A stretch of 64,000 nucleotides of DNA from Nothopassalora personata (taxonomy: Eukaryota; Ascomycota; Dothideomycetes; Mycosphaerellales; Mycosphaerellaceae): assembly GCA_033816765.1 (NCBI GenBank), contig CM066287.1, positions 4,836,001-4,900,000 on the forward strand, read 5' to 3'. Under the pieces are notes generated by a model that worked only from the letters and a program-made list of their open reading frames with translations, was not told where the DNA came from and did not search any database. This document shows positions 3,198 through 64,000 of this stretch, piece by piece. Position 1 is the stretch's first letter, and each line of letters opens with the position of its first letter. The translations under genes and the position numbers were made by a program.

Positions 3198-3271
3198 CGA
3201 CTAGGGTAGGAATCGAACCTACGGCCTTAAGAGTTCAGGTAGCTTACGCTCTACTACTAAGCTATCTAGCC
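3198..3271 (-). tRNA. tRNA-shaped sequence at pol 3' end of element A1
   Basis: Read on the minus strand, this 74-nt stretch has a tRNA layout. It has a 7-nt acceptor stem (GGCTAGA with CCTAGTC; the last pair A-C would be G-C before RIP). It then has TA, a D arm GCTT/GAGC, and a perfect T arm GTAGG-TTCGATT-CCTAC that contains a consensus B box (GGTTCGATTCC). TAGCTTAGTAGT fits the A box. The anticodon arm does not fold into a standard 5-bp stem with a 7-nt loop, so no anticodon is assigned. It lies just after the pol chromodomain, antisense to pol and downstream of the antisense accessory ORF. It could be a captured tRNA gene or a tRNA-like structural module. A functional tRNA is unlikely here. 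Confidence 0.6.
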
Positions 3272-3361: not shown

Positions 3362-3850
3362 CGCCGCCTAGTCGTTTACGGGCATCTCTAGGATATCCGA
3401 GAAAGAAACTAGCGAAGGTAATACCTCTACCCCTAATGCCTACTTAAGGGACGCTAGCTCCTCGCGCGCCTCTTCCTCCTCGAGCTTCTCTAACTCCTTA
3501 GCGACGGCGTCGTCGGTGCAATGCTTAGCTAAGCGTAGCTGTTTCTAAAGACGGATCTTACGTATCTTTAGCCGTAGCTCCTCCTCTTTAATCCTCTTAA
3601 GCTCTAGCTTAAGCTTATCGTGCGAATCGCGAAGATATTCCTACTCCGGACGAGAAAGATATACGTCGTAATCCCTATAGCCTTTTCGAATATAGGCCGA
3701 ATACTTCCTAGACCGAGAACCTACGATATACTTTACTACCGCGCCCGAGGATCGAGACTTCTAACAATTCGTATATAGAGCTATTTAAATACTAGAGATT
3801 TTAGTATCTAGAGCGAGTCGTTAACGGCGTTTATAGGAGGAAGAAGACAT
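3362..3850 (-). pseudogene. Antisense accessory gene of Gypsy A1 (Cys motif plus coiled coil)
   Basis: The minus-strand frame starts ATG-TCT-TCT-TCC-TCC (MSSSS) at 3850 and is broken only by TAG/TAA codons of RIP type. Around residues 45-65 it matches the D copy at 49000: KYIVGSRSRKYSAYIRKGYRDYD here against KCIVSPRSGKCSEYVRKGYSNCD there, so several Tyr codons here are RIPed Cys codons. A Lys/Glu-rich segment follows (KIRKIRL, KQLRLAK, AKELEKLEEEE) and looks like a coiled coil. It sits between pol and the 3' LTR, opposite to gag-pol. The function is unknown; metal binding by the cysteines is an inference. The natural stop is uncertain. Confidence 0.65.
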
Positions 3851-33094: not shown

Positions 33095-36000
33095 CTACCC
33101 CCCCCTTTCAGAGTGCGCTCCGGAGCACTCTTTTCTCTCACATCCATCATTGCCATTGCAAATGTCTCATCATCCATCAGGTCGTTATCTATTACGTCCA
33201 TCTCATCGTCATTCGTAACCACTGTCGTTGTACCCACCTCGTGACCATCCATGATGCTACGTAACGCAGGTGGGTTGTCGCGGCGACACGGCACAGCAAC
33301 CTCAGTTACTGTCCGGACGGTGTCCTCTTCGGTGTGTGTACTGAGCTCGTCGCACAGGCGCCCTGTGCCATAGTGACTCGCGCCATCTAGGCGGCTGCAC
33401 ACTGTGTTCTGATGACCATCGGCAGTGTTGCTGCCATTGTGACTCGCGCCACGCAAGCGCTCAGCTTCAGGGACTCGGTCTGCTTGTCGAGAAGGATCGT
33501 TATCGCGACGCGTATCGCTCTCTTTCTCACAAGTCCGGAGGCCTGGTCCCACCGGCATCAGAGTCATCGCTGCTGACGACGTGGGTGCTGTGCGTGCTAC
33601 TCGCATGCCTGTGGCATTCTCATTTGCAACCCAGTCTGCAGGTGGTTGAAAACCAGGTGGTTTGGTCGCTCGCGGGTGGTTGTGGTGAAAGTCGGCCACA
33701 GAGGCGGCGGCACCCTCAATAACCTGATCCGCAGCTTCATAGGATGGCCGATTGTATCCAACGTACTTCACCAAGTATTCCCAATACGGCTGCTTCCCTC
33801 CTGCTGGTGCGCGTCCGCACGGCCATCTCTTCTTGCAATCCAGGATTTGCTCAACTTCCCAGTGGTCGGGTTCGGCGGGGTCGGTCTCGTGCTGTTCATC
33901 GTCGACAATGCGAATCGGCGGAGGAGCTGGTTGTACTTGTCCCTGGACTGGCGGGTGTACTGGTGCAAGAAGGTGCGAATGAAAGTGGTTGTCGATATTC
34001 ATGGTGGGTGGGAGATCCACTTTGTAAGCATTGCCCGGAAGCACCTCCGTGATCACGTGCGGGCCCGACCACCTGACATCCATCTTTCGTGAAGGTCTCT
34101 CCATGGTCCAGTTCTCGGTGCTAATCCACACCTCATCGCCTTCCTTGTAGAGCGGCGCTGGTGTGCGGTTCTGATTAGCATACTCGGCTTGCACGGCTTG
34201 GGCGAGAGCCATCTGTTGGCGAAGATATTGCTGCATGTCGTGCATCTTTGTTGCAAAGCGATCCGCTGCTTCAGCATCCAAGCGTTGCTTGTGGGGCATG
34301 AGTGGCATTGGAAGATCCAGCTCGAGTTCAGAGAACCTTGGGTTGCGGCCAGTGTTAGCATAGAACGGCGATACACCTGTTGTAGCTGACACGGCATTGT
34401 TGGCTGTGAACTCAGCGAGGGGAGTCCAGTCTGGCCAGTCATCCTGAGCGTAGTTGACAAACATGCGCCAATACTGCTCCATAGCCTTGTTCGTGTTCTC
34501 GGACTGTCCATCAGTCTCAGGGTGATATGCTGACGAAAGCTTCTGCTTGATTCCCAACAGGGCGCAGAGACGTCTCCAGAATGCGGACACCCATTGTGTG
34601 CCACGGTCAGAGACAATGCTCTTCGGGAGTCCATGCCTGCTGAACACATATCGCAGGTACACGAGGGCTGTGTGCTCTGCAGTCATCGATTGAACTGGGA
34701 TCATGTGTTTCTCCTTGGTAAGTCGGCATGTGACGGTCAGGGCATCTTCGTACGTTTGTCCATCCAGCGCACTCTTGCCTGGTGGCAGATGAGTCACGAA
34801 ATCCATCGCAACATCCTCCCATGCTGCAAAGGGAACTGGCAAGGGTTTCAACAGCCCTGGGTATTGGATGTTCGTACTCTTGTTCGTGCGACAGATGCGG
34901 CAGGCTCGCACATAGGACTTGACGAAACGTGCCATGCCAGGCCAGACGTAGTTGCGGGCTACCAGCTCGTACGTCTTCTCGTCACCTATGTGACCTGCAA
35001 CTGCGTGATCATGGAAGGCTTGGGTGATGCGGGTGCGTACTGGCACTTCACCGTCGTCGAGTGCTTCTTCTGACTCAGGAGGCACAAAGAGACTGTACCC
35101 ACCGTACACGTTCTTCATGTAGATCATGCCTCCTACTGGCACGGCGTGTCGGTCATCCAGACGGTGCTTGCGTAGCAAAGAACAGGGTAAGTCGTTCTCT
35201 AGCTGCCGTACTGCTTCCTCGGTCTCTGGCTGTGCGTACAGCTCTCGGATCGCAGTCGTCAACGGAGTGACCACGTCGTTCGCACTAATGTTCAGAACTC
35301 GCGACGACGACAGGTTGAGAATGCGGTCTGGTCCTAGTAGCACCTGGTGCTGCTGCTGATTGCGCGGGTCGCTCAGATCACCGTGGATTGGCAAGTCCTG
35401 AGATCTCCTGGTGAGGCTATCAGGCTTGGTGCCTTGCACCCCTGGTCGATACACGATCTTGAAGAAGAACTGAGAGAGGAACTCGGCCCACCTTGCTTGG
35501 CGGCGATTCAACTGCTTCGTGCTCATGAACCACTCTAGGTTCTTGTGGTCAGAGTACACGAGCGTCGGCTTGTCTTCTGCTGACTCTGGGTCAGGCAGGT
35601 TCTCGTAATCGTCCGTGCCGAACTCATTGACGGTGAGCTCTGGGCGCCATTCCTCAAAGGCTTGCACAATGGCCAGCAACTCTTTGTCGTAGATGTCATA
35701 GTTGCATTGTTGTGGGTCCATTTTCTTGGACATATATGCAATAGGATGCAGTACGCCGTTCTCATTACGCTGCGACAGGACTGCTGCTGTTACGTAGTCT
35801 GATGCATCCGTTTCAAGGATCGTCTCTCTTCCTGGATAGAAGTGCTTCAGCGTGGGCGCGTCGATGAATGCCTGCTTTAGGGCATCGAACGACTTCTGGC
35901 AAGCTTCTGACCATTCCCATGGTACGTTCTTGCGGGTCAACTTGGTCATCGGTAAGCAGATCTTGCTGAAGTTCTTGATGAATCTGCGATAGAAATTGGC

Positions 36001-37929: not shown

Positions 37930-39968
37930 GAACCGCCGCCGGTGTTATTGCCGTTGCGTCGGTTGGTGCTTGGGTTGTAGCCTGGCGCGTATGGACGCCG
38001 GCTAACGTCCTTCAGTGGGCACTGGTCGTAGTCGACACGGCGGTGACCCACTTCCTCGCACTTCATGCATTTGTTCTGATCAATGCACTCTTGCGCCTTG
38101 GCAGCATCCAGTGGCTGCAGGTGCTGGTACTTCTGCGGACGGTCGGCCCACTTGGTCTTGGAGTTGGGGTTGGCAGGAGCGTCAGTGCTTCCACCTCTAC
38201 CTCCACCTGTGGCACCGTCCTTCTTGTCGTCGTTGCCCTTAGTGTTCTTGGGCTTGTCAGCGGACTGCTTCTTGTGCTTGAGGTCGTACTGCTCGAACTT
38301 GTCCTCATAAGTGTACAGCGCAGACACGACCTGATCAAGGGTCATGTTGGCCGTGTTCTCACTCATGATGCGGTTGTCGTATCTCGCGTTCAGCTTGCGC
38401 AGCAGGAAGTCCTTCTCAAGCTTCTTGTCGGCAGCACCGGCGTCCAGGTTGACAATGTCTGCGTTCTCGCGGAAGATAGGGTAGAACTCGCTGAACTTCT
38501 GCTTCTCGCCCTGGTCCAGTGTAGTGAGCTTGGTCATAGCAGTGGCGTGCGCATTGCGAGTGCCGTAGCGGGCTGCCAGATCGTCCATCATGTCATCAAC
38601 CGAGGCGTAAGCTGGTGTCGTGCCGCTTGTGACCTTGGTGAGACTGGGAATCTTGGAGTCGACATACTTCCAGGCTGAGTTCTTGAGCCAGCTTTGGACA
38701 TTCTGCAGTGAAGCCGTGACAGTGCGGTACTTGGACGCTGCCAGCCTGGCTTCGGCGGCACGCTGCCACTCTTCGAACTTAATGCCCTTCTCATCCAGTG
38801 GGTCGAACTCCTTCGGTGCCTTCGGCTCACTTGACGACTTAATGCCAGTGGTCATCGTGGAGTCGTATGTGGTGTAGCGGGACTGCGGCTCCTTGCTCTT
38901 CGAGCCCTTCTTCTTGGACTTAGAATTCTTGCGCTTGCTGCCACGACGGTGACCGCGCTCGTCATCGCTGTCGGAGGATTCGGAGTCGGAGGAGTCTGAT
39001 GATGGGTTGTCGTCTTCTCCAGTCGGCTTTGGCTTGTTGCCATTGCGACGACGCTCCAGCGACTCCTCGGATTCGGTGCGTGGAGGTGGTGACTCCTTGC
39101 GTGAGTCCTTGCGTTGCTTGGATCGCCCACGCTTCTCACGTCTCTCCTTTTCCTTCTTCTCAAGCTCCTCGATGCGCTTCTCAGCATCAACAAGCTTAGC
39201 CTCAGCTGCCTTGCACTGGGTGCGATACAGCTTCCTCGCTTCCATGGTCGTGGCCAACTCGGCTTTGACCTTGTCCAGCTCATCCGGGTCGATAATGACT
39301 TTGTCGGTGTGCTTCGCAAGTTCTGCCTTCAGCTTGTCCACCTCAGCTTGTCTCTGGTCTGCTTCAGCTTGTGCAGTACCAGCTTCGTCCTCGAGTCGAT
39401 CCATCTGCTCCTTCGCATCCTTGGCCTTGCGAATATTGATGCGGTTAGCGAGTTGGAGAGCCTCAATAGTCTTGTGTGCTCGTCGGTGGTCGGACTCGAT
39501 GTCGACAAGGATCTTGTGGACCTCCTCAGGGTAGTCGTTGACTCGCTTCTTGAGCTTCTCCGAGCTTAGCCCATTGAGAGACTCGAAGGTGTCTTGAAAC
39601 TGGTCAACAGTGACCCTCCTCTTCTTCGCACCTGGAGCAAGAGCCTCGCTCTCATCCTCAGTAATGTCCTCGATGTACTCATCCCCACACAGGTCAGCCA
39701 AGTTGAGCTCGGTCTCAACATCCTCCTCCTCGATCTCTTGGAGTCGGTCGAAGACCTTCTTGTGCTGCTTGTGGTAGGTGTTGTCTTCAGCCGTCAGCTG
39801 CTTCAGAACCTCCTCTTCTCTGCCTTGAGTCTGTGTCGCATCGCCGTTTGCGTTGTTTGTCGCGTCGGGGGGTAGGACGAAGAGGGAGGATCTGGTGATG
39901 TTCGCGCGATGTACGCGGCGGTCAGTAGTCGCCATGTCGTCGTCGTTATTGTTGTTCTTTCTCGCCAT
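37917..39968 (-). CDS. gag: G1 Gag polyprotein
   Basis: It has 683 residues starting at 39968. The N-terminal half is charged and helical with long coiled-coil segments and a Ser/Asp/Glu-rich stretch (about 290-350). The core gag region (about 390-560) contains W and L positions typical of retrotransposon capsids. Near the C-terminus (about 633-655) a zinc knuckle CMKCEEVGHRRVDYDQC has C-x2-C-x4-H spacing with a longer last gap than the usual CCHC. It forms the virus-like particle and binds element RNA. It ends in the frameshift site. The long coiled coil is unusual compared with typical fungal Gypsy gag. Confidence 0.9.
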   Translation of the reverse strand: MARKNNNNDDDMATTDRRVHRANITRSSLFVLPPDATNNANGDATQTQGREEEVLKQLTAEDNTYHKQHKKVFDRLQEIEEEDVETELNLADLCGDEYIEDITEDESEALAPGAKKRRVTVDQFQDTFESLNGLSSEKLKKRVNDYPEEVHKILVDIESDHRRAHKTIEALQLANRINIRKAKDAKEQMDRLEDEAGTAQAEADQRQAEVDKLKAELAKHTDKVIIDPDELDKVKAELATTMEARKLYRTQCKAAEAKLVDAEKRIEELEKKEKERREKRGRSKQRKDSRKESPPPRTESEESLERRRNGNKPKPTGEDDNPSSDSSDSESSDSDDERGHRRGSKRKNSKSKKKGSKSKEPQSRYTTYDSTMTTGIKSSSEPKAPKEFDPLDEKGIKFEEWQRAAEARLAASKYRTVTASLQNVQSWLKNSAWKYVDSKIPSLTKVTSGTTPAYASVDDMMDDLAARYGTRNAHATAMTKLTTLDQGEKQKFSEFYPIFRENADIVNLDAGAADKKLEKDFLLRKLNARYDNRIMSENTANMTLDQVVSALYTYEDKFEQYDLKHKKQSADKPKNTKGNDDKKDGATGGGRGGSTDAPANPNSKTKWADRPQKYQHLQPLDAAKAQECIDQNKCMKCEEVGHRRVDYDQCPLKDVSRRPYAPGYNPSTNRRNGNNTGGGSGNA

Positions 39969-40114
39969 CAGCTGTCGTGTTAGCCTTGGACTTACTCAAG
40001 GTGCGACTCGATTTGAGTCTGGCACCTAATATCTCAGCACTCCTAGGTGCTGTCGCGTTTGCTTATGCGATCTCCCGATCGCAGCTTCTCGTGTCTTTCT
40101 ACACGTTGGTAATG

Positions 40115-40178
40115 GTCTATTCGAAGTGTCACAAGCAGGTGCAAGCACGTGGTCGGATAAGGTACAAGTCGAATAGAC
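40115..40178 (-). promoter_or_regulatory. Candidate self-priming pair at the G1 5' LTR junction
   Basis: Just inside the 5' LTR the sense strand has TCGAATAGAC (40124-40115), complementary over ten bases to GTCTATTCGA within the LTR (40178-40169). No PBS complementary to a tRNA 3' end (starting TGG) is seen. Tf1/sushi-type chromoviruses prime from their own RNA 5' end in this way; use here is an inference. Confidence 0.45.
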
Positions 40179-40318
40179 GGTCTATCTAAGAGAGGCGCGG
40201 AGGGCGCGAGGTAGATATACACGCGCCAAGCCCTCGGGCCGGCTTAGTCAGCGGCGCGCGCGGGATCCACGCACGTGCGCGCGGGTCCAAGTGAATGATG
40301 GGCGCCGGTACGGTGACA
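40127..40318 (-). repeat. 5' LTR of G1 (192 bp)
   Basis: Identical to the 3' LTR at 32903-33094, with 6-bp inverted ends TGTCAC/GTGACA. Confidence 0.95.
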
Positions 40319-48999: not shown

Positions 49000-49500
49000 A
49001 TGTCTTCCTCCTCTAAAAGTTCCCTTCGTCGACAAGCCCTCGCTATCGATATACAACGATCCGGTATTAAGATAGCCCCCTACTATTACTGTCGGTCCGC
49101 TCGAGTTACTACTACCGAGCGGCGCCTAAAATGTATCGTTTCGCCCCGGTCGGGAAAATGTTCGGAGTACGTAAGGAAGGGTTATTCTAATTGCGACGTA
49201 ACCCTATCCGCACCCGAGTAGACGAGGTTTCGCGATATTCGTAATAGCCTCTAGCGAGATCTCGATCGTACGGAGGAGAAAGAGCTAGAGCTTCTCTATT
49301 AGTAGGCCGAGCTCGCTTAGCGCATTATTTGCTAGAAGGCGAAGAAAATCCGTCTTCGTAAGCAACTTCGCCTCGTATCCGGCAAGGCCGACAATGCTAT
49401 AGTAAAGGAGCTCGAAGACCTTAAGGCAGTAGAAGAGGAAGAGATAAGGGAGTCCGCTAGTGTAGAAAGCGTACCGTCGTCTAAGGAGTTCGATCCTTAG
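49000..49500 (+). pseudogene. Antisense accessory gene of Gypsy D (Cys motif plus coiled coil)
   Basis: It starts MSSSSKSSLRRQALAIDI at 49000. Cysteines occur at YYYC, LKCIV, GKCSE and NCDV, so the ancestral motif is K-C-x2-C-x6-C, with one Cys now Tyr. After a TAG at 49219 the frame continues with KIRLRKQLRL, AIVKELEDLKAVEEEE and other charged helical sequence that aligns with A1 (KIRKIRL, KQLRLAK, AVAKELEKLEEEE). It is on the strand opposite to the element's sense. The function is unknown. Copies in A1 and C establish it as a family. Confidence 0.7.
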
Positions 49501-50181
49501 TAGATATTAGTTTAGGACTAGGAGCAGTTATACGATCTCTCTTTTCCTTAGGTCGTGCCTCCTCTAGCCTTATCGTCGTAAGTCGTTATTCTAGTAGTCT
49601 TTTATCCGTTACTATTAAGATGTAGCATCTTAAGGGGAGCTAACAGTTAGGTTATTATAAGGGGCGGGCCCCTGTTTCTTAGTATAGGCTACGCCTATAC
49701 GTTTGGATTGCTTTCCGACACCTTTTCTTCGGACAGCGTGTAACTTCCCCTTTCTTCTATATCGAACTTATTATAAACTTTATAGAACTTTAGTATATAC
49801 GTCGTTTACCCGTAATATTAAGTTCGATCCATTCGAATTAGCTAGGCACCTACTATTAAAGAGACGGGATACGTAATAACGTCGCCGGGTAGCGAGAACC
49901 CCGGGACTAGTGCCCCGAATAAAAACTTCTAACTTATACTATAGTAACTATACTAGCGATAGGAAGAGATGTAAGCCAAGTTAATTGTAACGCGCGCCGC
50001 TTTAAAAGAATCGGAAGACGCTCGACGTTAGTTAACACCTATAGTCTCGCTACTAGTTTATAATAAGACGACTACTAGTAACCTAATAAGACAGCTACTA
50101 TAGACGCTAAACGCCGCCGCGCCCTCGCCGCGTACCGGAGAAGAACCGTCGGGTCCTAGAGGTTAGAACCCCCCTTCCTAG
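49501..50181. other. RIPed junction region between D and the E gag fragment
   Basis: No assignable coding region. A palindrome TAAGATG-TAG-CATCTTA lies near 49618. It may contain the end of the D accessory gene and the LTR and leader of the element to which the downstream gag belongs, but I could not delimit them. Confidence 0.4.
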
Positions 50182-50430
50182 GACAGTAAGGTAGAGACAT
50201 TCCGCGATTACTTCTTAAGGTTAAAGAGCTCTTTTAGGGTGCGATCCGCCCTAAAACCGACGCTCTCTAAGGAGTATTACTAGGACGCGATTAACGACAC
50301 CTTACTAGCGAGAGAGCGTACTAGGATGCGGCACTTCTAGGATAAGGGAGACGGCGAACTTAGGAAGGACCCCGTTACTTTCTTTACGTAACTCGATAAA
50401 GTCTTCGGTAATAGCAACGAGCGCGCTAAG
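50182..50430 (+). pseudogene. Gag fragment of element E (5' part)
   Basis: The plus frame DSKVETFRDYFLRLKSSF...TRMRHF...DPVTFFT...LDKVFGNSNERAK is gag-like and interrupted only by TAG/TAA. It is cut after AAG at 50430 by element C. It resumes in the same frame at 63950 (ALE-LTKIKHTNG), which confirms both the frame and the insertion. Confidence 0.7.
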
Positions 50431-50814
50431 TGTTACGGTTCGGATTGAGCTACGACGGCACGCCTAACTATTAGCTATAGAGATTACGTGCGCTGCACGA
50501 GATCACTCGCTCACTAGTAACTTAGTAATTCGAGATTACTCGCTTACTAGTGACCTAGTGATTCGAGATTACTCGCTCACTAGCGATTGAGTGATTAAGA
50601 CTAAGACTAGCAATGTCTCCTTTGTATTTAGGAACGCTAAGAAACCCTTATGGTTCTAATGCGTTTAACTTATGTTACTATCTTACTAATTAGAATATAA
50701 CTCTTATTCCTATTATTCATCTTTGCTTAGCTTACTTTAGCCTCTCTAAAGAATACCGCTACGTAACTTAACTTATCTCTCTTTTAAGACTAGCCCTAGA
50801 ACGAGATAATAACA
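50431..50814 (+). repeat. 5' LTR of Gypsy C (384 bp)
   Basis: TGTTACGGTT...GATAATAACA. It contains three diverged copies of a GAGATCACTCGCTCACTAG-like unit. Followed by CTTTAAACGCCC. Confidence 0.92.
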
Positions 50815-50929
50815 CTTTAAACGCCCTTAGGATAAGCGCTACTTAAGTAGCTAGTAGGGGAATACCCGCCCCTAGCGAAGTAGGAAGCATCCGCCGTGCG
50901 CTACCATAATAGACTACTACGAAGGACGA

Positions 50930-51900
50930 TAAGTCTAATGACGATAACGAGCCTACTCCGAGGAAGAACGACGTTAAGGCTGCTAAGCTAGACCTCTTCT
51001 ATAGAGATAGGGCTAAGTTCGACGACTGGATTAACTAAATGGATATGTACCTTATGTTTAACCTAGTCGATGCCGATAAAAGAACTATCTTCGCTATTAC
51101 GTACCTTCGCGGAAGTGCGCAGAACTGGATTAAACCTTACCTTAAGGAATACCTTAAAGGTATAGGACGATTAGAGCCTACCGGAATGTTTAGGAGCTAC
51201 ACCATTTTTAAAGATAAGATAAAATCAATCTTTAGAACCTCGAACGAAGTCTAATAGGCTATACGAATCATTTAACACCTAAAGCAGAAGACGTCTACTT
51301 TAGAGTATGCCGCCAAATTCGAAGAATACGGACAAATTACCGGATGGGACTAGACGGCGTTAATAACTATGTTCCGACGTGGACTTAAGGACTCCGTTAA
51401 GGACGAGTTAATAAGACACGGGGGACGGATCACTAACCTCGAAGAGCTAATAAAGGCGTCGATCAATATCGATAACTAGCTCTAGGAACGATACTAGGAA
51501 AAGAAATACGACTCTAAAGTAGGAGGTATAGTAGGATACGCTCCGGATCGTAGACCCTTAGGAGGGTACGTTACGAAGGGAGAATTTCTACGATAAAGCT
51601 AGCCCTACTATAGACTACAGCTAATAGAACTGGACGTTACCCAACGAGGACGGAGGATCGATAAGAGTAGGGGCTACGGAAAGCCCTTTAAAGGAAAAGG
51701 AAAACTTACATACTATGCCTATAGTAAAGAAGGCCACATGGCGCGGGATTGCCGCGGTAAGAATATAGTGCGCCGCGAGCAGTTTAATATAATGTAACTA
51801 AAGGTAGGCAAATCTAGGAGCAGTGTTAGACCCCGACAATTCAACTATACCTAGAGAGTAGAGGAGAAGGATAGCAACCGGGTTGCGATGCCTCTCCTAG
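50930..51900 (+). pseudogene. Gypsy C gag remnant
   Basis: An open stretch at 51039-51254 (MDMYLMFNLVDADKRTIF, then AQNWIKPYL) is the capsid-like core. Near 51720 YYAYSKEGHMARDC is a CCHC zinc knuckle in which the first Cys codons have become Tyr by RIP (TG to TA). Further stops are TAG. Confidence 0.8.
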
Positions 51901-52849
51901 ACCCCTTATAAGGACGAGGAGGATACTATGTTTAACGACATACACTACTACCGAATAACTAACAATTAAAGACTATTAGATTATTTAGCATAATAGCACG
52001 AGGAGTCAACTACGAAGTTGAGAAAGAATCTCGATACGGTTACGGAAGCCTTCATTAGCGATTCTGTTACTAGGACTCGTGTTAAACCTACTACGACGCT
52101 AAGTTAGGCGTAGGGTACTAGCCACGACAACTAGTAGGAACCCTAGGAGCTTAACACGGACAAAACAAGCTCTAAGAAGTAGACATAGACGAATCTTACT
52201 TCGACGACGACAATAAAGAAAACTAGGATCTAGAATGGGACGGACGCTAGTTACTAGTACTAGAACAATAAACAAATGAACTAGATACTATCGAAGAAGA
52301 TTACGTACCGGAGGAGTTAAGCGAGGACTCATCCGAAGAAGAAGAGAGCAACACCGACGACGAAAACGAAGTATATACATTCACGGTAGATACGCTAAAG
52401 AAACTCTAGAAGTTAATTATCTATCTCTAACGGAGGCACGAGGAATTCCTACTAAAGTTCTTAGGGAAACGATACCTAAACCCTAACGAATTCGACAAGA
52501 CACTCGATATAATAAGGGGCATAGTATAGGGCTACCTAACTATAAACAATACTAAGAACTTAGCTAAAGCGGTTATCGAACGACCACCTATAGGAAGCTA
52601 AATAACGGATACCGGATACCTAACACCGGTAGGAACTTTCGTCTTAAACGAACTACGAACAGTAGTATAGTATATACGGGCTCTCTACTTAGAATCGTAG
52701 AAGATCTAGGAACGTAATAGACTATAAGTGTAGACATAGGGCAACGGGCTACAGGTTCTAGCCGAAGCCTCTAGGCACGAAGCATAGCGAACTACATACC
52801 ATTTGGGAAAAGGATTAGCTCCCTAGGAATAAGCGACTAAAGGGAGTTA

Positions 52850-55800
52850 TGCAACACTTAGGCTTACGCATCGACATTAAACACAGTTTTCTAGACATAA
52901 GCAATCGTTAACGGACATAAGACTAGTGTTATAATCGACTTAGGAGTAGCGGGGAATTTTATCTCCGAGTCTTTTATAAGAAGAAACGGGTTAGCTACCC
53001 TAAAGAAGAAATGGGGGTACGAGTTAATCGCGGTAAACGGATCATCGTTACCTAGCGTAGAATAGGAGACGATACTATTGCTACTAGCTATCTAACAGTA
53101 CTACGAGAATATTACCTTAGATGTTACTAATATAGCTAGTTATAACATAGTATTAGGTATGCCTTAGTTAAGAAAGCACAATCTAGTAATCGACTAGAGA
53201 AGAGGAGTACTTACATTTAGGGAACGCGATTGCGTTGTCGACATTCAGCCTACGTAGTAGTAGCGTTTACTAGTAGATAAGGTAAGGAAACAGCTAAACG
53301 AGATACAGCTTACGCCGAATAGAAGGATAGAAGAACTACCTTCGACCGGGATAGACACTAGCGTAGGGCCGCCGGGTTACGAAGTTACTAGAAGTGATAG
53401 AAGTAACGCACTATCGAAGAATACTAACATCTTAGAGTTAAGTATTCCTAAGGAGTATCGCAAGTAGTCGCGACTCTTTAAAGAGGAGAGAGGCAAAACC
53501 GCCTTACCTAAGCACCGCCTATAGGATTACAAGATTAACATTTAGCTAGGGAAAGAGCCTCTATAGGGACCCCTATATTAAATGTCTAAGAAAGAGCTAT
53601 AGACCCTATAAGAATAGCTAAAGGAGAAGCTAGCTAAGGAATAGATAAGAAGATCTACCTTAAGTGTAGGAACTCTATATATGTTCGTTCTAAAAGTAAA
53701 CGGGAAGTTACGACTCGTATAAGACTATAGGAAGTTAAACGAGATTACGATTAAGAACCGATACCCGCTACCTAACATCGAAGAAGCATAAGATAGATTA
53801 ACCGGATCGGACTAGTACACGAAGATTAACCTACGAGATGCCTTCTATGCTATACGAATGGTAGAAGGAGAAGAATAGAAAACTGCTTTTAGGATAAGAT
53901 ACGGACTCTACGAATTCTTAGTTATGCTAATGGGATTAACTAATGCACCCGCATCCTACTAGGACCTTGTTAACGAAACACTTAGAGACCTACTCGACGT
54001 ATACGTTATCGCCTACATAGACGACATACTAGTCTATATAAAAGGATCCCTATAGGAACACATAAGACAAGTCTAGGACGTCTTCGAACGACTTACGCAA
54101 TTAGGATTTAAGACAGCACCCGAGAAATGCGAATTCCATAAGAAAGAAGTTAAATTCTTAGGCTTCATTATTAGCACTATAGGGATAACGATCGACCCTA
54201 CGAAGACATAGTCAATTAGAGAGTAGCTAGAACCGAAAACAGTTAAGAACGTACAATTATTCCTTAGACTAACGAACTATAACCGGAAATTCATTAAGGA
54301 CTATTTAAAGATAGCAGCACTAATAACGATGCTTATAAGAAAGAACGTTACTTAGAAATAGGGAAAGGAACAGATTAAAGCATTTAAGAAACTTAAGGAA
54401 TAATGCGCTTTAGCCCCTACGCTTCGACTATTCGATAGTAGTAAGGAAGTCTACATCGAGACCGATGCGTCTAATATAGCAATAGGCGCGTGTTTAACAT
54501 AGATATACGATGGGTAGAGACACCTAGTAGCCTATTACTCCCGGAAAATGACTATAGCGGAACAGAACTACGACATCTATAATAAAGAGCTTCTAGCCAT
54601 TGTTACTACTATGCAACATTAGAGAGTATATGTCGAGGGCCTACCGAAGTTAACGATTCTTTCTAACTATAAGAATCTTACGTACTTCACGACGACGAAA
54701 GAACTTACTCGAAGGCAAGCCCGCTGGTCGGAGCTGCTAGGACAGTATAAGTTCGAAATTAAATATACTCTAGGACGAGAGAATAGCCGCGCCGACGCGC
54801 TAAGCCGAAGAAGCGACTATATAGAAGGAAAAGAACTAGTGCAACACAAAATACTAAAGATAAACCCCGACGGAAGTCTTAGTACTAACATAAGAGAATT
54901 TAATAACATCGTACGGATATTAGACGATAGGGACGAACAATTCCCTATATCGTAAGGAAAATACTAGGTACTAAAGGATCGAGAAGAAGAATGTATACGA
55001 TAACATTACGACGGACCAACTTATAGGTACCCTAGAACTTTAAAAACAATAGACCTAATATAGCGCAGTTTCTCATTTCTATAAATGAGACTTAAGGTGT
55101 CACGCTATATTAAACAATACGTACACTACTAACGGAACAAGGCTACGAGATATGTAAGATACGGTTACCTACAGTTTAGGACACTACCGACGAAGCTATA
55201 GGACGAAGTTACAATAGACTTTATTACGAAACTCCTACCGTTAAGAGACTAGGTTACGAAACAACCATACGACATAATACTAGTTATAGTTAATAGACTT
55301 ATAAAATACGTACACTTTATTCCTACATCGGAAACATATAATGTAGAGTAGCTCGGATACCTCGTACTAGATAGACTTATCCGATACTACGGATTCCCCT
55401 AAGCGTTTATAACGGATAGAGATAAGCTATTTACATTAAATTACTAGAAGACGCTTATAGGAACGATCGGAATTAAACATAAGCTATTAATAGTATATTA
55501 TCCGGAGATAGACGGATAAACCGAAAGGATAAATTAAACGCTAGAACAATACCTACGACACTACATTAACTACGTATAAGACAATTAGGTTTCATTACTA
55601 CCAATAGCGCAGATTGCACTAAATAACTACAAATTAGAGACAACTTTAACGACGCTATTCTATGCGAACTTTAGTAAAGATCCTAACCTATTCGGAACAC
55701 CTAGATCCTATCTATAGGCCGAGAGAGCAATTGTAACGACGGATACTCTTAAAGAAGTGCATAAAGAAGCACGTAAGGCGATCGAAGATGCATAACGAAA

Positions 55801-55855
55801 ACTATCTTAATAACGGTAGGACACGAGAAAAATAGCACCTCTACTAAAAGAGGGG
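52850..55855 (+). pseudogene. Gypsy C pol remnant, part 1
   Basis: The plus frame broken by TAG holds protease (about 52890-53160), reverse transcriptase with AYIDDILVY near 54013-54035, RNase H near 54440-54760 and integrase near 55000-55790. It is interrupted in the linker after integrase by B2 and resumes at 62449 in frame. Confidence 0.88.
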
Positions 55856-55860
55856 GATAA

Positions 55861-56057
55861 TGTTAAGGGGATGTCGTAAAATATAGCACGCCTACGACCT
55901 ACTAGTCGTAGATGAACTAATTCTTGCCTTTTATTTAAGACGCATCGCGCGTCGTAAGGTGTACTTATACGTGTTACGTACGGCTTAGTAGCCGGTCGCG
56001 ACCGTATATTACATATAAGGCTATATATAGGGGTTAGCTACTAGGCTGCCCCTTATA
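55861..56057 (-). repeat. 3' LTR of Gypsy B2 (197 bp)
   Basis: TGTTAAGGGG...CCCCTTATA; inverted ends TGTTAAGGGG/CCCCTTA(A/T). Confidence 0.9.
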
Positions 56058-56094
56058 ATTGCCTCCCCTCCCGTGCGAGCTGTCCTTAGCTCGC
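56058..56094. promoter_or_regulatory. B2 polypurine tract and adjacent hairpin
   Basis: ATTGCCTCCCCTCCC is the reverse complement of the tract. The inverted repeat GCGAGCT (56075-56081) and AGCTCGC (56088-56094) with centre GTCCTT follows. It occupies the same place as the palindromes in A1, C and D. Confidence 0.65.
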
Positions 56095-56230
56095 TAGTTA
56101 CTACGTAGAGGCTCCTATGTACTTCTAGAACTATAGTTACTATACGGCCTATATACGGGTTGCGTACGTGTCGTTATGTAGGTGTAGGTGAGTGAGGCTT
56201 AGTTACTATGCCGACGTAGCTAGTTAGGGG

Positions 56231-56237
56231 TATAAAA
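56231..56237 (+). promoter_or_regulatory. TATA-like box for B2 accessory gene
   Basis: TATAAAA lies 128 bp before the accessory ATG at 56359, on the strand opposite to the element's sense. Confidence 0.45.
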
Positions 56238-56358
56238 CTCTAGCCTAACCTAGCCCTTTCTTAGTACGCTCCCTAGCTTATTACCTTCGCTACACTACTA
56301 CTACGCACCCCTACCGCACTATTATCGTAAGCGCCTTGCTAGTATTATTATTATTATT

Positions 56359-57350
56359 ATGTCTACCGTGCCCTCCCCGCTACTGTTCTCCGGCCGCTCC
56401 GCCTCCTCTAGTAGTACTAGTAGCGATAGTACTACTAACACCGTAGAAGACGAGCGCCGCTAGGCGGCTCTAGTACGCGACGCCCCTAGAACGCCTAGTA
56501 GTCGCAAGCGACTAGCATCACCCTCGTAGCTACCAACCCCTCGCTAGCTACTAAGCTCTCGTAGAGAATTAATATATATATACGGTGCCTCCCATACTTC
56601 GTTAGGGGTAAGTCTCTACGCGCGTCGCCTACGATTCGTATACTAACCACTTACTAGACGAGGCCGATAACTGTAATAGTGTTACTACCGGCAAGCTCCT
56701 AAAGAAGTGTAGCCGCTATAGGCGTAGTAAATATAGCTACGTGCCTAACACTAGCTACGCTATCGCCTCGCTAGTAAGCCGCCTACGTGCCGCGCGGTCC
56801 TAGCGCGACTTCCTTACGGCTATAATGGGCTAGGCGCCTATAGACCTCTAGTAGTAGGAGCTAGTAGAGTAGATCCGCCTATATGCCTAGCTAGGTAACG
56901 ACATTAAGGAGGTAAGTCGCTACTTCGCTCGTGCGAGTCGACTACTACTCGCGGGGGAGGGCTCTAGTGCGTCCCCTATGCTTCGGCTAACCCTTTCTAT
57001 AGGCTATTAGGCAGTTTAATGCCTATAAGCACAAGCGTGCCGGGGAGACCCGTATACGTACCTCCGCCGCCGCCGCTACTACTGCCGCCGCCCCCGCCGC
57101 CGAAGCCCTCGCGCTCTAGTAGGAGTAGAACCGCGCCCTTAATAGGCTGTTCGAACTCGGCCGCGCCGTAAGTCGTATGTTCCTCGCCTACGTGTACCCT
57201 ACTAACCGTAGTCCCAGTTCCTATAGGCGTAGAACATCGATACTACCGCCGCCGACTAGGCATTCTTACCTAAGTTACTACGTAACGACAACTAAGGCGC
57301 TCGCCTTATACGCTACTCGCGGGCTCCTCGCCTACTACTACTCTACGTAG
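56359..57350 (+). pseudogene. Antisense accessory gene of Gypsy B2 with two introns
   Basis: The plus strand is antisense to B2 gag-pol. Exons are inferred at 56359-56607, 56663-56911 and 57015-57350. Intron 1 starts GTAAGT and has a TACTAAC branch site at 56641. Intron 2 starts GTAAGT, has GCTAAC near 56986 and ends GGCAG. Both are phase 0. Exon 1 is Ser/Thr/Arg-rich (MSTVPSPLLFSGRSASSSS). Exon 2 carries KKCSRYRRSKYSYVP, a RIPed C-x2-C-x5-C motif, then a helical segment. Exon 3 is Ala-rich with NRALNRLFELGRAVSRM. Internal TAG codons are of RIP type. The protein is unidentified. It is analogous in place, strand and Cys motif to the A1, C and D genes, though their overall sequences differ. Confidence 0.65.
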
Positions 57351-57445
57351 CCCCTAGTAGGCGCGCTACTCTTTAGCTTTTGTTTTGTTTATAGTTAAGA
57401 AAAGTTTTATTTATACTCTAGTACTAGTCTTATTTACTTCTCCTT

Positions 57446-60400
57446 AACGCCTTATAGTCGGCTACTATGCGATCCGCATTCGCGAGGCCCTCCGCCGGTT
57501 CCTAGCTATTATACTCCTCTAGCTAGTCCTTCTACTAGACTAGATACTATAGCTTCACCTTACGCTTACGCCTATCTAGTACTACCTCTACCTTATACTC
57601 TCCGTCCTTATTAGCTAGAGGGGGTACGGGTCTATCCTTATCGCTACCGATATACGGCTCGAGGAGAGAGACATAGAAGACGTTATAGAGCCTTAAGTCG
57701 GCTAGTAGCGCTAGGCGGTACGCCTACGAACCGATAGCGTCCGTAATGCGGTATAGGCCGATGAACTTCGGACCTATCTTCTTCTTTAGTACTACTAACT
57801 TAAGGTTCTTCGTTAATAATAGGACTAAGTTACCTACGCGGTAGGTCTTAGCTTAGTAGGTCTTATTATAGTAGCGAGCCTAGCTTTCTACTATAGCCTT
57901 CTATCGCTCCTCGAGTGTAGCGCGTAGTTTTTGTATACGACTCGTAGCTATTACCGCTACTAGTACTTCCCCCCCCTAGGTCTCGTCTCGAGATTTAGTT
58001 AGTATAGGGGTAATCTTAGGTCGCTAACCGTACGCTATTTCGAACGGACTTATCCGTAGTGTTAGGTAGATACTGTTATTAGCTACGAATTTAGCAACTA
58101 TAAGCTACTTAGCCTACTTAGTTTAATTGTCACTATAGTAATAACGAAGGTATTATTCGAGGGTTTAGTTTACCCTCTTAGTTTAGCCGTTAGTCTAAGG
58201 GTGAAAGGCCGTAGATAGCTTACGCTTTATACGCGCCTCGAAGTAGAAGTCACTCTAAAACTAACTAGTAAAGACCGGACCTCGGTCGCTTACTATGCCT
58301 AACGGGATACTATAGTGTCGCACGACTTTGTCTCGTAGGAGCCTCGTAAGCTCTACGGCTGTATAAGTCTTCGTCGTCGGGATATATAAGCTCATTTTTA
58401 AGTAGCGATCGACTATTACTAGGATCGCATTATACACGCAACCGGCTCGCGTGCTTAGAGGTAGGTCCGTAATAAAATCCATAGTAATTTCCTACTACGG
58501 TCGCTCCGGTCTAGGAAGCGGTTATAGCCTACTATAGGGTCGATAGCGTTTAGCCTTCGAACCCTAGTAGGTTCTATAGGCTTAGACGTATTGCTTTACG
58601 TCCGTACTAAGTAAGTCCTACTAATAATTACGTCGTAATAGCTCTTTAGTCTTAGTCCTTCTAAAGTAACCCGCGAGGACGTCGTCGTAGTATATACGAA
58701 TTAGATACGACCTAATTGCGTAATCCCTAGGTACTACGATCGCGTCTCCGTAGTATATAAGGTTATCCTTTATATACTATCCCTTAGCGTCCCTCGCGCT
58801 TAGCGCCTACGCTAAGTATGCGATACACTAGTCGTCTTACTACTACGCGATCTTTATTAAGAGTAGGATTAACTCACCCGTCGAGCTATAAGCTTAATCC
58901 TATATTACTGTAGCGTATACTACTACTAGTAACGACGGCTTATCTTAATAGGGAAGGTTACCTCTCCGTACTACTATTACCGCGCCTATGTTGCCCTATA
59001 TCGCCTCGTAGGTAGTAAGCGCGCGCTTTACCGTCGGCTCGCTTATCCCTTCTAGAGACTCCTTCTAGAAAGATAGCTTACTTTACAAGGTAGGTAGTAA
59101 GTTCGAAGTTTGTTACGTTATAGCTACGTAGTTACTACGTCTCGAAGGCGCGTCGGCTAGGTTAGTCTTACCTAGCCGATGCTCTACTATAAAATTAAAA
59201 GACTATAGGAACGTAGCCTATCGAGCTTACCGCCTATTTAGCTACTTTACTATTATAAAGCCCTATAGGTTAGCGTAGTCGACTAGTACTCGCACCGTAT
59301 ACGTAGCGCCCTCTAAGTATAGCCTCTAATGCTTAAAAGCCTTAACTACTGTAAGTAGCTCCTAATCGTACGTCTCGTAGTTACACTCGGCCAGTATTAT
59401 CTTACGTAAATAGAACACGATAGGATGCTACTTAGTACTAAACAATTAGGATATAATACCTACGATCGCGAAACCTAAGGCATCCGTCTCGACTCGCGTA
59501 CGTAGCGTAGGATCGAAGTGCCTAAGTATTAGTACACCTAAGAATCCGGCCTTAAGCTATCGAAACGCCTACTCTTCGCTTAAGGTCTACGTAAGAGGGC
59601 CGTGCTTCTTACCGTTCTTAGATCCCTTTATTAGGTCCGTTAGGGGCTTGTAGACCCTTAAGTATCCTTCTATAAAACGCCGGTAGAAGTTATAAAACCT
59701 AAGGAAGGACTAGACCTTATAAAAGGTCGTAGTTATAGGCTATTCCTCGATAGCGGCTACCCTACTCCTATCTATCGACACGCCTACGGCGCTTACGACA
59801 AACCTAAGGAACTCTACACTCTCCTAGAAGAAGTGACACTTCTTAGGGTTTACGAATAGGGTAAACTTTCGTAGCCTCTCTAGTACCGCGCGTACGGCTC
59901 GTACGTGTACCTTACGCGTCTCGCTATAGATAAGGATATTATCTAGGTAGACTACGTAAATGTTATTAACTAAGCCGGTTAGCGCCTTGTTAATATACCC
60001 TTAAAAGGTTGCCGGTGCGTTAGTTAACCCGAACGGCATTACTAGGTACTCGTAGTATCCGTATCGCGTGCGAAACGTAGTCTTCTACTTATCGCCTCGC
60101 TTAATAGGGATACGATAGTAGGCGTCCTTTAAATCGATTATAGTAAAGAACCTAGAACCTAATAGCCTATCTAGCGTCTCGCTAATTAGGGGTAGGGGGT
60201 ATCGGTTCTTTACTATAATCTCATTTAGGCCTCTATAATTAACATAGAGCCTAAGAGTACTATTCTTCTTTAGTACGAACAGGATAGGCGCACCCGCCTC
60301 GCTTACGGACCGCCTAATCCACCCCTTCTCTATTACTTACGTAAGGTACTCCTTTAAGGCCTCTAACTTAGTTAAGGACTAGTAGTATAGCGGCTTAAAA

Positions 60401-62246
60401 GGGGGTTTCTTTCCTTTAACGAGATTAATCGTATACTTAACCCCGTCGGGCATCTTACGCTTCGCCTACTTATTAGGTGCGTATACATCTCGGAAGTCTA
60501 TAAATGCTTTAGGCTACGAGGGGCCCTCTCCTTTAGGTACTACTATAGCAATAGCCCGAACACTTATCGTATAAACCTGCTTTAAGCTCTCGAGATCCTT
60601 AAGGAACTCGCGTACGTTACGCTACTAAACCGTAGGCGTCTCTATACCGTAGTACTACTAGTTATCCTTATCGGCCTTTACTATCCGATTACGATACCGC
60701 TAGGGTCTACCTAAAATCACTAATGGCCTACCTATAGGCACCGCGTAGTAGATAGCGTTACTTACGCGCTCTACTCCCGCGTTATTAGCGAGTCGTAGCC
60801 GAACCGTAAAGGCGCCGTAGCAATACCCTAGGTTATACGTATACGACTCTAACTTCGGTAGCCTTACCCTATTAATAGGTTACATTTAATGTCGGAGTAT
60901 ATACTTATACGATACTAGGCTAAGATCCGTACAGTTATCTAGGAGAAACGTAGCCTCGCAAAAGCCCTTACGAGTCTCGACTACGCCTCGCAAGTGACGC
61001 GCTAGACACGTATCTACTCGCCTTAAGGGGTCGACTTTAGGAAAACTCGGACTTAGGAGCGACCTACTTATAGTCCTCTACCTTTTCCCTAGTCGCTACC
61101 CTTCTTAGTTAGAGCCTTCGTAGCGTCTACCCTACGAACCGCTTACGCGTTACGGTCCTTCTATAGGTACCTATTCGGGCAATCCGTCTTAATGTAACCC
61201 TTCTTATAGCATCTATAGCACTCCGCTTTAGTCCTATCGAAGGTTATAGACGATCCGCCGGCGTCCCGCTAGTAACTCGTACCCGGGTCGCGCGACGCCT
61301 AACTATACTTCTACTACTTTGAGCTACGATCGCTTCGCCCTTAGTCTCTCGCCTACGGCGACTATGCTACCCGCGGTCGTGCCCTCCGCTACTACGCTCC
61401 GTACTTTTAATACGCGAAGCTAGGATTACTAGTTCCTCTTTAGTTATTAGGATGTTATAAAACTTAACGATTGCGGACCGTAGGCTAGGCGTAAGCTTAG
61501 CGAGTATATGTCGCACGCGTTACGCCTCCGTATAGTCCCCTAACTAATCCTCTATAACATCTAGCTTAGTCGTAAACTAACGTACTATCTAGTTGTCCTT
61601 CTATTTTACCGCCTTATACTCTAACATTACGTTAAGCACGCGGTTTATAGGATTACCGTATACGTCTCAATAGAACTCCTTAAAGTCCTAGTATATATAC
61701 CCTTTAAGGTTAAGGACGCTATAGTTAGCGTACTATCGCTCACTTGCCTCTCCGCTTAGGTACATAACCCTATATAGGACCTTTAACTCGTTCGTCGTAT
61801 ACGTGCCGCCTAAGAGGGTAAAGATAAGAGAGAGCTCCCTTAGGAATACCCGTGCTTTCTTAATCGAGTCCCCTCTAAAAGGCGTAGGTTCTTTAAGACG
61901 TAAACGTGTCGTATGCGATGCAACCGCGCCTCGAGCTACGATATTATCGTTAGTTACTATAGATAGAGGAGGGGGAGGGGGAGTAGGGGATAGTTCTCCG
62001 CCGGATTCGCCCTAAGGGTCCGCCGGCGGCACGCTTACGTCCCGTAAGATCTCTAACTGTTTAATCTCCCTCTATATCTCCTTCTCCTTAACCTCTGCCC
62101 GAAGGGCATCCCTCCTTACGACTAAGGCTACACGCCTCGCTTATTACTAGGCCCTAGGGCTTAGGGGAGCCGTAGGCGTAGCGCTACTATCGTCGCGTTC
62201 GGACTCTATAGCGTATATAGATTGTAACGAAGAGAAGAATTAGAAC
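57446..62246 (-). pseudogene. Gypsy B2 gag-pol remnant
   Basis: Minus strand. An integrase fragment is open at 58261-58482 (MDFITDLPLS...IVSDRGPVFTS), identical to B1. The remaining frame is broken by RIP stops; pol occupies roughly 57450-60600 and gag roughly 60600-62200. The domain limits in gag were not resolved. Confidence 0.8.
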
Positions 62247-62443
62247 TATTAAGGGGATGTCGCAATGTATAGCACGCCTACGACCTACTAGTCGTAGATG
62301 AACTAATTCTTGCCTTTTATTTAAGACGCATCGCGCGTCGCAAGATGTACTTATGCGTGTTACGTGCGGCTTAGTAGCCGGTCGCGACCGCATGTTATAT
62401 ATAAGGCTACATGTAGGGGTTAGCTACTAGGCTACCCCTTATA
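62247..62443 (-). repeat. 5' LTR of Gypsy B2 (197 bp)
   Basis: TATTAAGGGG...CCCCTTATA, followed by the second GATAA. Confidence 0.9.
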
Positions 62444-62448
62444 GATAA

Positions 62449-62830
62449 GGTCTATCTCCTCATAAAAAACTTAAGAACAAGAAGATAGACTAAAAAACTG
62501 GATTACGTTAAGGTCGGACTATTTTTAATCGATAAAGTCGTAGGACTAGTTAACTATCGACTACGACTACTACTAGACGCAAAAATCCACCTAGTCTTCT
62601 ATATCTCTAAGTTGGAACCCGTAGACACCGAAACACCCTACTAGGAAAGCTTCCATTTCGAGCCGGAAGTAGAGAACGAATTTGAAGTCAAAAGAATCCT
62701 AGATAAGAAAGGTTAGCGATACCTTATTAAGTGGAAAGGATACGACGAATTAGAAAATACCTAGGAACTAAAAGAGAATCTACACAACTGTTAGCAAAAA
62801 ATCTAGGAATACTACAAAAAGAAACGGCCA
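62449..62830 (+). pseudogene. Gypsy C pol remnant, part 2 (chromodomain end)
   Basis: Resumes GGTCTATCTCC in frame after B2, with KVYLLIKNLR-type linker sequence and a chromodomain (YLIKWKGYDELENT near 62719-62761). The pol ends before the tRNA-shaped sequence. Confidence 0.8.
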
Positions 62831-62869
62831 GCCGACTAAGTTACCTATTAGCGACTAGTCGGCCGGGAA

Positions 62870-62945
62870 TAGCTAAGGTAGGAATCGAACCTATAACCTC
62901 CTTTCCGAATGGCGGAACGACGCTCTACTATTAAGCTACCTAACT
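62870..62945 (-). tRNA. tRNA-shaped sequence at pol 3' end of element C
   Basis: It is 76 nt on the minus strand. The acceptor stem is AGTTAGG with CTTAGCT (seven pairs, two of them G-U), then TA and a D arm GCTT/GAGC. A short hairpin TTCCG-CCATT-CGGAA stands at the anticodon position. The T arm is ATAGG-TTCGATT-CCTAC (A-C mismatch explained by RIP). A-box and B-box matches (TAGCTTAATAGT, GGTTCGATTCC) are present. Same place and strand as the one in A1 at 3198-3271. The anticodon arm is not canonical, so no isotype is given. Confidence 0.6.
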
Positions 62946-62997
62946 AATTAATAAGGGTAAGGGGAGACTTATAACTTATATTCCCTACTACAACGGG

Positions 62998-63483
62998 CTA
63001 CCTAGTAGAACTACAAGGGACGGAGAAGTCGATCGCGTTGTTAATAAAGTTAATCGAGGACTATACCGTAGAAGAAAGGCTAATAGTCGCATCAGCAGTA
63101 GGATAATCGACGTCCTTAATCTCTCTAGAGGCCTCCATTTCGGCCTCTAAACACTGCGCCTTCTTACGCGCGCGCGCCTCCGCTTAGCGAAGTATTGCCT
63201 TATCCCGCATTAACCGTACTAAGATCTCCGTAAGCTCCTCCTTATCCTTTTCGACCTTTTTCCGGTACTCCTCCCGAGTCCTGTTAAGAGACTCCTAGGA
63301 TAGGTTTACACACTTACGCCCGCGACGAACACACTCCGAACACCGAAGCCGAAAGTTGCCCTCTATAGCGACATAGAATAACCCGTTAAAAAAGCAATAG
63401 TCGTACGCGAGATCCACTAGACGACCGTGTTCGTTAATTTCCTTAGCGAGCCGGAGACGATTTTTAGAAGAAGAAGAAGACAT
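62998..63483 (-). pseudogene. Antisense accessory gene of Gypsy C (Cys motif plus coiled coil)
   Basis: It starts MSSSSSKNRLRLAKEINEHG at 63483 and is open for 62 codons before a RIP-type TAG; total length to the last plausible stop is about 161 codons. YDYC is followed by RCSECVRRGRKC, an intact C-x2-C-x6-C motif and the best-preserved member of the family. The rest is charged and helical (TREEYRKKVEKDKEEL, EARARKKAQCLEAEMEAS). It lies opposite to gag-pol between the tRNA-shaped sequence and the polypurine tract. The motif recalls half of a fungal zinc cluster, but DNA binding is not shown. Function unknown. Confidence 0.72.
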
Positions 63484-63515
63484 CGTTATAGGCTACGAAG
63501 AGGGGACATCGTGTT

Positions 63516-63541
63516 ATCTTATATAAGCTTCGGGACGAAGC
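63516..63541 (-). promoter_or_regulatory. Palindrome and TATA-like sequence upstream of C accessory gene
   Basis: On the accessory strand, GCTTCGTCCCGAAGC (63541-63527) is followed directly by TTATATAAG, then the ATG at 63483 about 45 bp on. This is a plausible antisense promoter. Confidence 0.5.
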
Positions 63542-63547
63542 TAAGCT

Positions 63548-63560
63548 AGAAGGGGGATGG
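63548..63560 (+). promoter_or_regulatory. Polypurine tract of Gypsy C
   Basis: AGAAGGGGGATGG abuts the 3' LTR. Confidence 0.85.
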
Positions 63561-63944
63561 TGTTACGGTTCGGATTAAGCCACGACGGCACGCCTAACTA
63601 TTAGCTATAGAGATCACGTGCGCTACACGAGATCACTCGCTTACTAGTAACTTAGTAATTCGAGATTACTCGCTTACTAGTGACCTAGTGATTCGAGATC
63701 ACTCGCTTACTAGCGATTAAGTGATTAAGACTAAGACTAGCAATGTCTCCTTTATATTTAGGAACGCTAAGAAACCCTTATAGTTCTAATGCGTTTAACT
63801 TATGTTACTATCTCACTAATTAGAATATAACTCTTATTCCTATTATTCATCTTCGCTTAGCTTGCTTCAGCCTCTCTAAAGAATACCGCTACGTAACTTC
63901 ACTTATCTCTCTTTTAAGACTAGCCCTAGAACGGGATAATAACA
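63561..63944 (+). repeat. 3' LTR of Gypsy C (384 bp)
   Basis: Same length and ends as 50431-50814; flanked on the right by CTAAG. Confidence 0.92.
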
Positions 63945-64000
63945 CTAAGGCCCTAGAGTAGCTTACTAAGATTAAACATACGAACGGTTAACCTTAGTAC
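63945..64000 (+). pseudogene. Gag fragment of element E (continuation)
   Basis: After the duplicated CTAAG the frame reads ALE-LTKIKHTNG with TAG interruptions, continuing 50182-50430. It runs out of the window. Confidence 0.65.

Follow-up and report, generated by a model that had tools for sequence, protein, structure and literature searches.

The question raised by this locus is whether the frames that lie antisense beside the 3' LTRs of several Gypsy elements are remnants of a gene carried by those elements and, if so, what its product does for them. The window, by which we mean the whole 64,000-nucleotide stretch of the Nothopassalora personata genome analysed here (C1:4836001-4900000), was compared with the remainder of the same assembly (54.5 Mb, 40 contigs). 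Element C spans 50431-63944 and has 384-bp LTRs that were read directly from the sequence (5' LTR, 50431..50814, plus strand; 3' LTR, 63561..63944, plus strand, repeat family D6). It is flanked by a 5-bp target duplication, CTAAG (50426-50430 and 63945-63949), and holds a nested element at about 55861-62454. Its antisense gene (62998..63483, minus strand) lies 77 nt from the 3' LTR on the internal side; it is RIP-damaged, with three internal stops, and is a relative of the canonical-type cluster described below, with public relatives P0033 and P0044. Element A1 carries a RIP-damaged copy of what we call the L047 type, with seven stops (3362..3850, minus strand), and gene D (49000..49506, plus strand), which sits in a truncated element of minus orientation, is RIP-damaged with eight stops. 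A further element of the window (32901-40318), with identical 194-bp repeats and long open frames of 1591 and 683 aa, has no room for an antisense gene beside its lower repeat. The window also contains a dihydroxyacetone-kinase gene that is 90% identical to its counterpart in Dothistroma septosporum, the best named sequence among the best 120 of 4821 matches; Zasmidium, Pseudocercospora, Zymoseptoria and Cercospora follow in the same set, a ranking that makes the Mycosphaerellaceae the likely family of the host.

An earlier note on this DNA had described such antisense frames in four elements, and for three of them (A1, C and D) the observation holds. The features said to unite these three were borne out in part: all begin with MSSSS and all end in a Lys/Glu-rich stretch, but the motif C-x2-C-x6-C is found literally in C only. 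Compared with intact relatives, which have six cysteines, C and D have each lost two and A1 five. The fourth candidate, the B2 stretch adjoining the LTR of the nested element (56359..57350, plus strand), was not confirmed, either as an antisense frame or as a member of the family. Its MSTVP start and its Cys-rich piece (56660-56800) are in different frames, and no copy with more than 78 open codons around the Cys-rich piece was present among the best 150 of 489 candidates, so that its coding nature is unproven.

Undamaged relatives of A1, C and D exist in the same genome. A 62-aa stop-free piece of C gave at least 121 genome matches (among the best 150 of 172 candidates) and a 73-aa piece of D at least 150 (the best 150 of 438 candidates), in both cases with uninterrupted frames included; given these genome-wide matches, the frames of C and D exceed chance. 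Between A1 and its intact relative L047 there are 77 substitutions, of which 60 are C>T or G>A and 32 stand in a CpA context. Since 60 of the 77 run in the RIP direction, A1 is a RIP derivative of the L047 type. On the small contigs C20, C21, C30-C34, C39 and C40 and at the start of C9, the D protein matched 15 stretches of 68 codons (45%) that all scored alike, possibly a subtelomeric repeat.

Twelve distinct intact antisense proteins of 166-217 aa were read in this genome. The loci read show two kinds of element: gag-only mini-elements, and autonomous, pol-bearing elements such as L047. The mini-elements measure 2438-2501 bp, have LTRs of 317-355 bp and encode a 330-aa Gag (Retrotrans_gag plus a zinc knuckle) and a convergent antisense ORF; no pol ORF was seen in those read. 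The two LTRs were identical in seven of the eight mini-elements that were cut out (the LTR ends of the eighth, 215_L049, were wrongly set, and its R-U5 and leader values were left out), and a 5-bp target duplication was seen in five of the eight as cut and in two more when one end was shifted by one base. L047 is the intact form of A1: its pol ORF converges with a 179-aa antisense ORF and scores above the Pfam cut-off for RVT_1, RT_RNaseH, Integrase_H2C2 and Chromo, with a protease match and with rve at 30.5 bits against a cut-off of 32.6. With reverse transcriptase, RNase H, integrase and chromodomain, L047 is a Ty3/Gypsy chromovirus. Tandem arrangements were noted for gag copies (six at C12:1356314-1367583, spaced by exactly 2056 bp, a mini-element array) and for integrase-bearing frames of 1677 codons (C1:5719179, 5729954 and 5740729, spaced by exactly 10,775 bp, copies of a larger element).

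The linkage of the gene to these elements was followed in both directions. Seventy-eight matches to the C and D pieces were open over 186 codons or more without a stop; a convergent Gag was listed within 2.2 kb for 52 of them, 16 were convergent with the end of pol (all of the L047 family, and all 16 members of that family), and 10 had neither a convergent Gag nor pol among the matches listed. Conversely, at least 52 of the best 121 gag copies (from 1045 candidates) had the antisense gene among the matches listed, and all four that we read of the remaining 69 carry an intact antisense gene of further subfamilies. Intact antisense homologues beside Gypsy 3' LTRs, which the earlier note had asked to be looked for, thus do exist, adjoining chromovirus pol or within gag-only mini-elements. 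In the pol-bearing Gypsy elements examined here, the gene lies antisense between pol and the 3' LTR.

Selection on the antisense frame was estimated from 36 pairs of intact genes, of which two had dS below 1, the remainder being saturated or nearly so. For L048/L049, dN/dS was 0.05, with 4, 5 and 50 substitutions at the first, second and third codon positions; for L019/L045 it was 0.09, with 13, 16 and 72. The sense-strand frame whose third positions coincide with those of the antisense frame also gave low values (0.07 and 0.13), but it contains stops. All five other frames have stops in both sequences of L048/L049; the same is true for L019/L045 except for one frame, which is interrupted in a single sequence of the pair. 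Because the alternative frames, even the sense frame of low dN/dS, hold stops, the antisense frame is the coding frame, and it is under purifying selection. The ratio near 1 that would have spoken against a gene is far from the values found in the two unsaturated pairs. Taken together, the intact copies and the low dN/dS support the view that the elements themselves encode a protein and that selection maintains its gene.

A six-cysteine zinc-cluster pattern, which occurred in none of 12,000 shuffled sequences, is present in each of the 12 distinct intact proteins. Five of them (190, 205c, 166a, 166b and 186) have exactly the Gal4 (Zn2Cys6) spacing, C-x2-C-x6-C-x(5-13)-C-x2-C-x(6-9)-C, and in the other seven the first loop is longer than that of Gal4. 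In AlphaFold models of two proteins a long helix (74 residues in one, 85 in the other), which includes a highly conserved basic stretch, comes after the cluster and is followed by a tail; in the larger subfamily the tail has a conserved LEMPxxxW-like motif. Of 29 proteins (9 of our own and 20 public ones), 28 carry a net negative charge over their last 60 residues, and the N-terminal part is net positive in all 29. The five PDB fold matches of the canonical-type model were Pho7-DNA (two), Leu3-DNA (two) and CBF3, all of them zinc-cluster proteins or complexes, with E values of 1.4-4.7, none of them significant. VIA-align returned no fold match for the first AlphaFold model, PDB sequence searches returned no zinc-cluster chain, and none of the 21 proteins scanned reached the 21-bit cut-off of Pfam Zn_clus (PF00172), the best scoring 20.4. 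Since the proteins stay below that cut-off and the fold matches are individually weak, we do not file them as members of PF00172; they nevertheless look, and likely work, like Zn2Cys6 regulators. The earlier note had proposed a regulator or an RNA/DNA-binding factor. The look of a nucleic-acid binder stands, but RNA binding is less likely than a DNA-binding regulator, because the cysteine motif that it quoted is half of a six-cysteine cluster of the Gal4 type.

Profile searches brought up two sets of public proteins, 27 and 44 in number, with four members in common. The named homologues, known from protein sequences alone, come from Xanthoria, Oleoguttula, Rachicladosporium, Ramularia, Penicillium, Aspergillus chevalieri, Sporormia and Pyricularia; homologues are thus present in several Pezizomycotina. 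They are called hypothetical or Zn(2)-C6, some being listed in UniProt as Zn(2)-C6 fungal-type domain, and under such names they may be mistaken for host transcription factors.

We favour, with somewhat better than even confidence, the reading that chromovirus-type Gypsy elements of this fungus, and gag-only mini-elements, carry beside the 3' LTR a selected antisense gene for a predicted Gal4-like regulator, which likely binds U3. The protein would bind zinc through its cluster, dimerise as a coiled coil and bind DNA. Its gene would be transcribed leftwards out of the U3 of the 3' LTR, which would make U3 a two-way promoter like GAL1-GAL10, and the zinc-cluster dimer would act on U3 and so regulate the element's own sense promoter. 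Activation is our first choice and repression the second, because most Zn2Cys6 proteins are activators and the tail is acidic.

The comparison of whole elements revealed that this 3' end is exchangeable. Seven distinct mini-elements were compared in all 21 pairs. Their gag genes agree at 95-99%, but between gag and the LTR identity drops to 42-59% in 19 pairs (the two others have 81 and 88%). For the stretch of U3 that precedes the TATA box, identity is 22-63% in 20 pairs and 73% in the remaining one (a shuffled control of another pair gave 31-38%). R-U5 is again similar, at 88-98% among five mini-elements, while that of 202_L019 is truly different, with 46-59% identity to those five. The same pattern recurs in pol-bearing elements. 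Element C of the window and L047 are 88.8% identical in a 3.28-kb stretch of pol, and their R-U5 parts are 89% identical; in the interval that separates the U3 start from the antisense-gene start they have a DNA match of about 100 bp only (81%), and none was found in the remainder of either U3 or the antisense gene. L027, of a third pol-bearing family, is 95% identical to L047 over the end of pol and into a tRNA-like gene (by BLAST over 338 nt, used in place of a 59% value that compared unequal lengths) and 97% identical in R-U5; both its U3 and its antisense gene, which is in pieces in this copy, differ from those of L047. That antisense genes and U3 regions differ so strongly where gag is 95-99% identical means that the 3' end of the mini-elements has been exchanged, and bodies that stay constant while their ends diverge require recombination and not fast divergence. 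We conclude that an end made up of antisense gene, polypurine tract and U3 has been swapped on a nearly constant body.

The tRNA-like sequence, which had escaped the earlier note, lies between pol and the antisense gene, on the same strand as the latter, in element C (62870..62945, minus strand; Rfam RF00005, 38 bits, gathering score 29), in A1 (3198..3271, minus strand; RF00005, 47.7 bits) and in L047 (L047:1646-1719, plus strand). DNA similarity between element families runs from pol into this gene and ends there. It is present in all 16 intact copies of the L047 family (15 at 100% identity, one at 99%) and in three of seven C-type copies searched, and it was found in none of the four mini-element loci searched. 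Unlike Rfam, ARAGORN with the bacterial code predicted no tRNA in the window; a permissive run allowing introns gave 333 predictions, far too noisy to be used. The tRNA-like gene likely marks or insulates the boundary between pol and the antisense gene. It is unlikely to be the replication primer, because in seven of seven elements the 16 nt that directly follow the 5' LTR (for example 50815-50830 in the window) include an 8-nt complement to the element's own R region, where the matching 8 nt lie 37-39 nt past the TATA box. The elements thus look self-priming, as Tf1-type elements are, and judged by this complementarity they likely are.

Beside the polypurine tract of element C, 18 nt ahead of the 3' LTR, there is an inverted repeat with a GGA loop (63526..63542). 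Comparable repeats, whose loop is GGA, GGGA or AGGA and whose arms measure 7-9 nt, lie 17-18 nt ahead of the LTR in 11 of 16 intervals, and three more have one with 5-nt arms (not significant); over the element loci read, the distance is 15-18 nt, and the LTR start was not located for L031 and window A1. The arms vary between families and pair within each. A role as family-specific operator of the antisense protein was ruled out, because elements with very different proteins (179, 184, 186 and C) have identical arms.

U3 holds candidate binding sites. Repeated hexamers, such as CTGATC/CTGAGC or AAGAGAGC arrays, are significant in six of nine U3 regions (p <=0.04) and not significant in the other three or in any of four control segments, and the motif G[AC]TCAG is enriched in five of the nine; both are candidate sites as judged from their recurrence. 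Similarity of U3 and similarity of the antisense gene correlate (exact Mantel test, 23 of 5040 permutations, p 0.0046), a correlation that physical linkage alone may explain, since the two adjoin. L050 and L052, with identical U3 and unrelated antisense proteins, count against a strict pairing and show that exchange also occurs between U3 and the antisense gene. We put forward only tentatively the view that the antisense Gal4-type gene and the U3 that it controls form exchangeable regulator-promoter modules, a swappable end that would confer new specificities on the same body and be a counterpart of phage immunity modules. If this pairing is real, it would show how a retrotransposon governs its own promoter and how swapping one end makes that control more diverse.

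That U3 and antisense gene diverge strongly while gag hardly changes, and that their similarities correlate, would also be expected if the protein were a repressor that shuts down additional copies by binding the U3 of its own element. Elements with a new pairing of U3 and gene would then evade the resident copies and spread, in the manner of phage immunity regions. We hold this to be unlikely, as the acidic tail fits an activator and L050 and L052 combine one U3 with unrelated genes. A more doubtful alternative is that the zinc cluster and the basic helix bind element RNA or cDNA, or a host partner, and not the LTR promoter, making the protein a particle, RNA or integration factor. While the highly conserved basic stretch and the retention of the gene with gag in mini-elements without pol would suit such a role, Gag has a zinc knuckle of its own, five of the 12 proteins have Gal4 spacing, and the sole fold matches, none significant, are to DNA-binding zinc-cluster proteins. 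Passive capture of a host transcription-factor gene is a plausible origin, Zn2Cys6 genes being abundant in fungi, but a captured gene with no function for the element is very improbable given its fixed place in many element types, its presence in four of four sampled gag copies and the purifying selection on it. Just as improbable is that the antisense transcript itself matters, through double-stranded RNA control, with the protein incidental, as discussed for plant antisense ORFs in PMC7264820: selection acts on amino acids, third positions accounting for 50 of 59 and 72 of 101 substitutions.

The predicted Gal4-like regulator can be set beside several known systems. A fungal precedent for an antisense gene in a Gypsy element is brtn of the Boty-like elements of Botrytis cinerea (Zhao et al. 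2011, as cited in PMC7264820, PMC8365987, PMC4227169 and PMC5987419). In the descriptions given there it resembles ours in being antisense in a fungal chromodomain-bearing Gypsy element, between pol and the 3' LTR (its position according to PMC7264820); a zinc cluster or exchange is not mentioned for brtn in those descriptions, by which alone the two were compared. No Botrytis name occurs among the 27 and 44 public matches. Plant elements have antisense ORFs as well, namely Grande gene23, RIRE2 and Retand TRP28, which according to PMC7264820 and PMC11963269 are likewise conserved and placed between pol and the 3' LTR, with non-autonomous copies in existence; the Grande protein is described there as nuclear and TRP28 as a predicted DNA binder. 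TRP28 is a different protein, and none of our proteins scanned with Pfam matched PF04195. Our searches of the open-access literature brought up no zinc-cluster antisense gene of a retrotransposon; measured against those papers, the kind of protein, its wide occurrence and the 3'-end exchange look new. Both PMC7264820 and PMC11963269 describe the role of antisense genes in LTR retrotransposons as unknown. The genes described here offer many intact copies, a recognisable DNA-binding design, some elements of 2.4-2.5 kb and candidate target sites in the adjoining LTR, and with these intact copies, small elements and LTR sites their function is directly testable in yeast.

Helenus elements, which also occur in fungi, share with ours a tRNA-like sequence within an LTR element; theirs is in the LTR, according to PMC10886601, whereas the one described here is internal, antisense and placed where pol meets the antisense gene. 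Gal4-type Zn2Cys6 factors such as Pho7 and Leu3 have in common with our proteins the six-cysteine cluster, the helix after it and the acidic tail; ours are much shorter, element-borne and below the Pfam cut-off, and mostly have a longer first loop. HBZ of HTLV-1 is a bZIP protein, and we claim no homology between it and the antisense protein. The likeness is one of arrangement: HBZ, which PMC11963269 mentions, is likewise a regulator encoded antisense at the 3' end of a retroelement.
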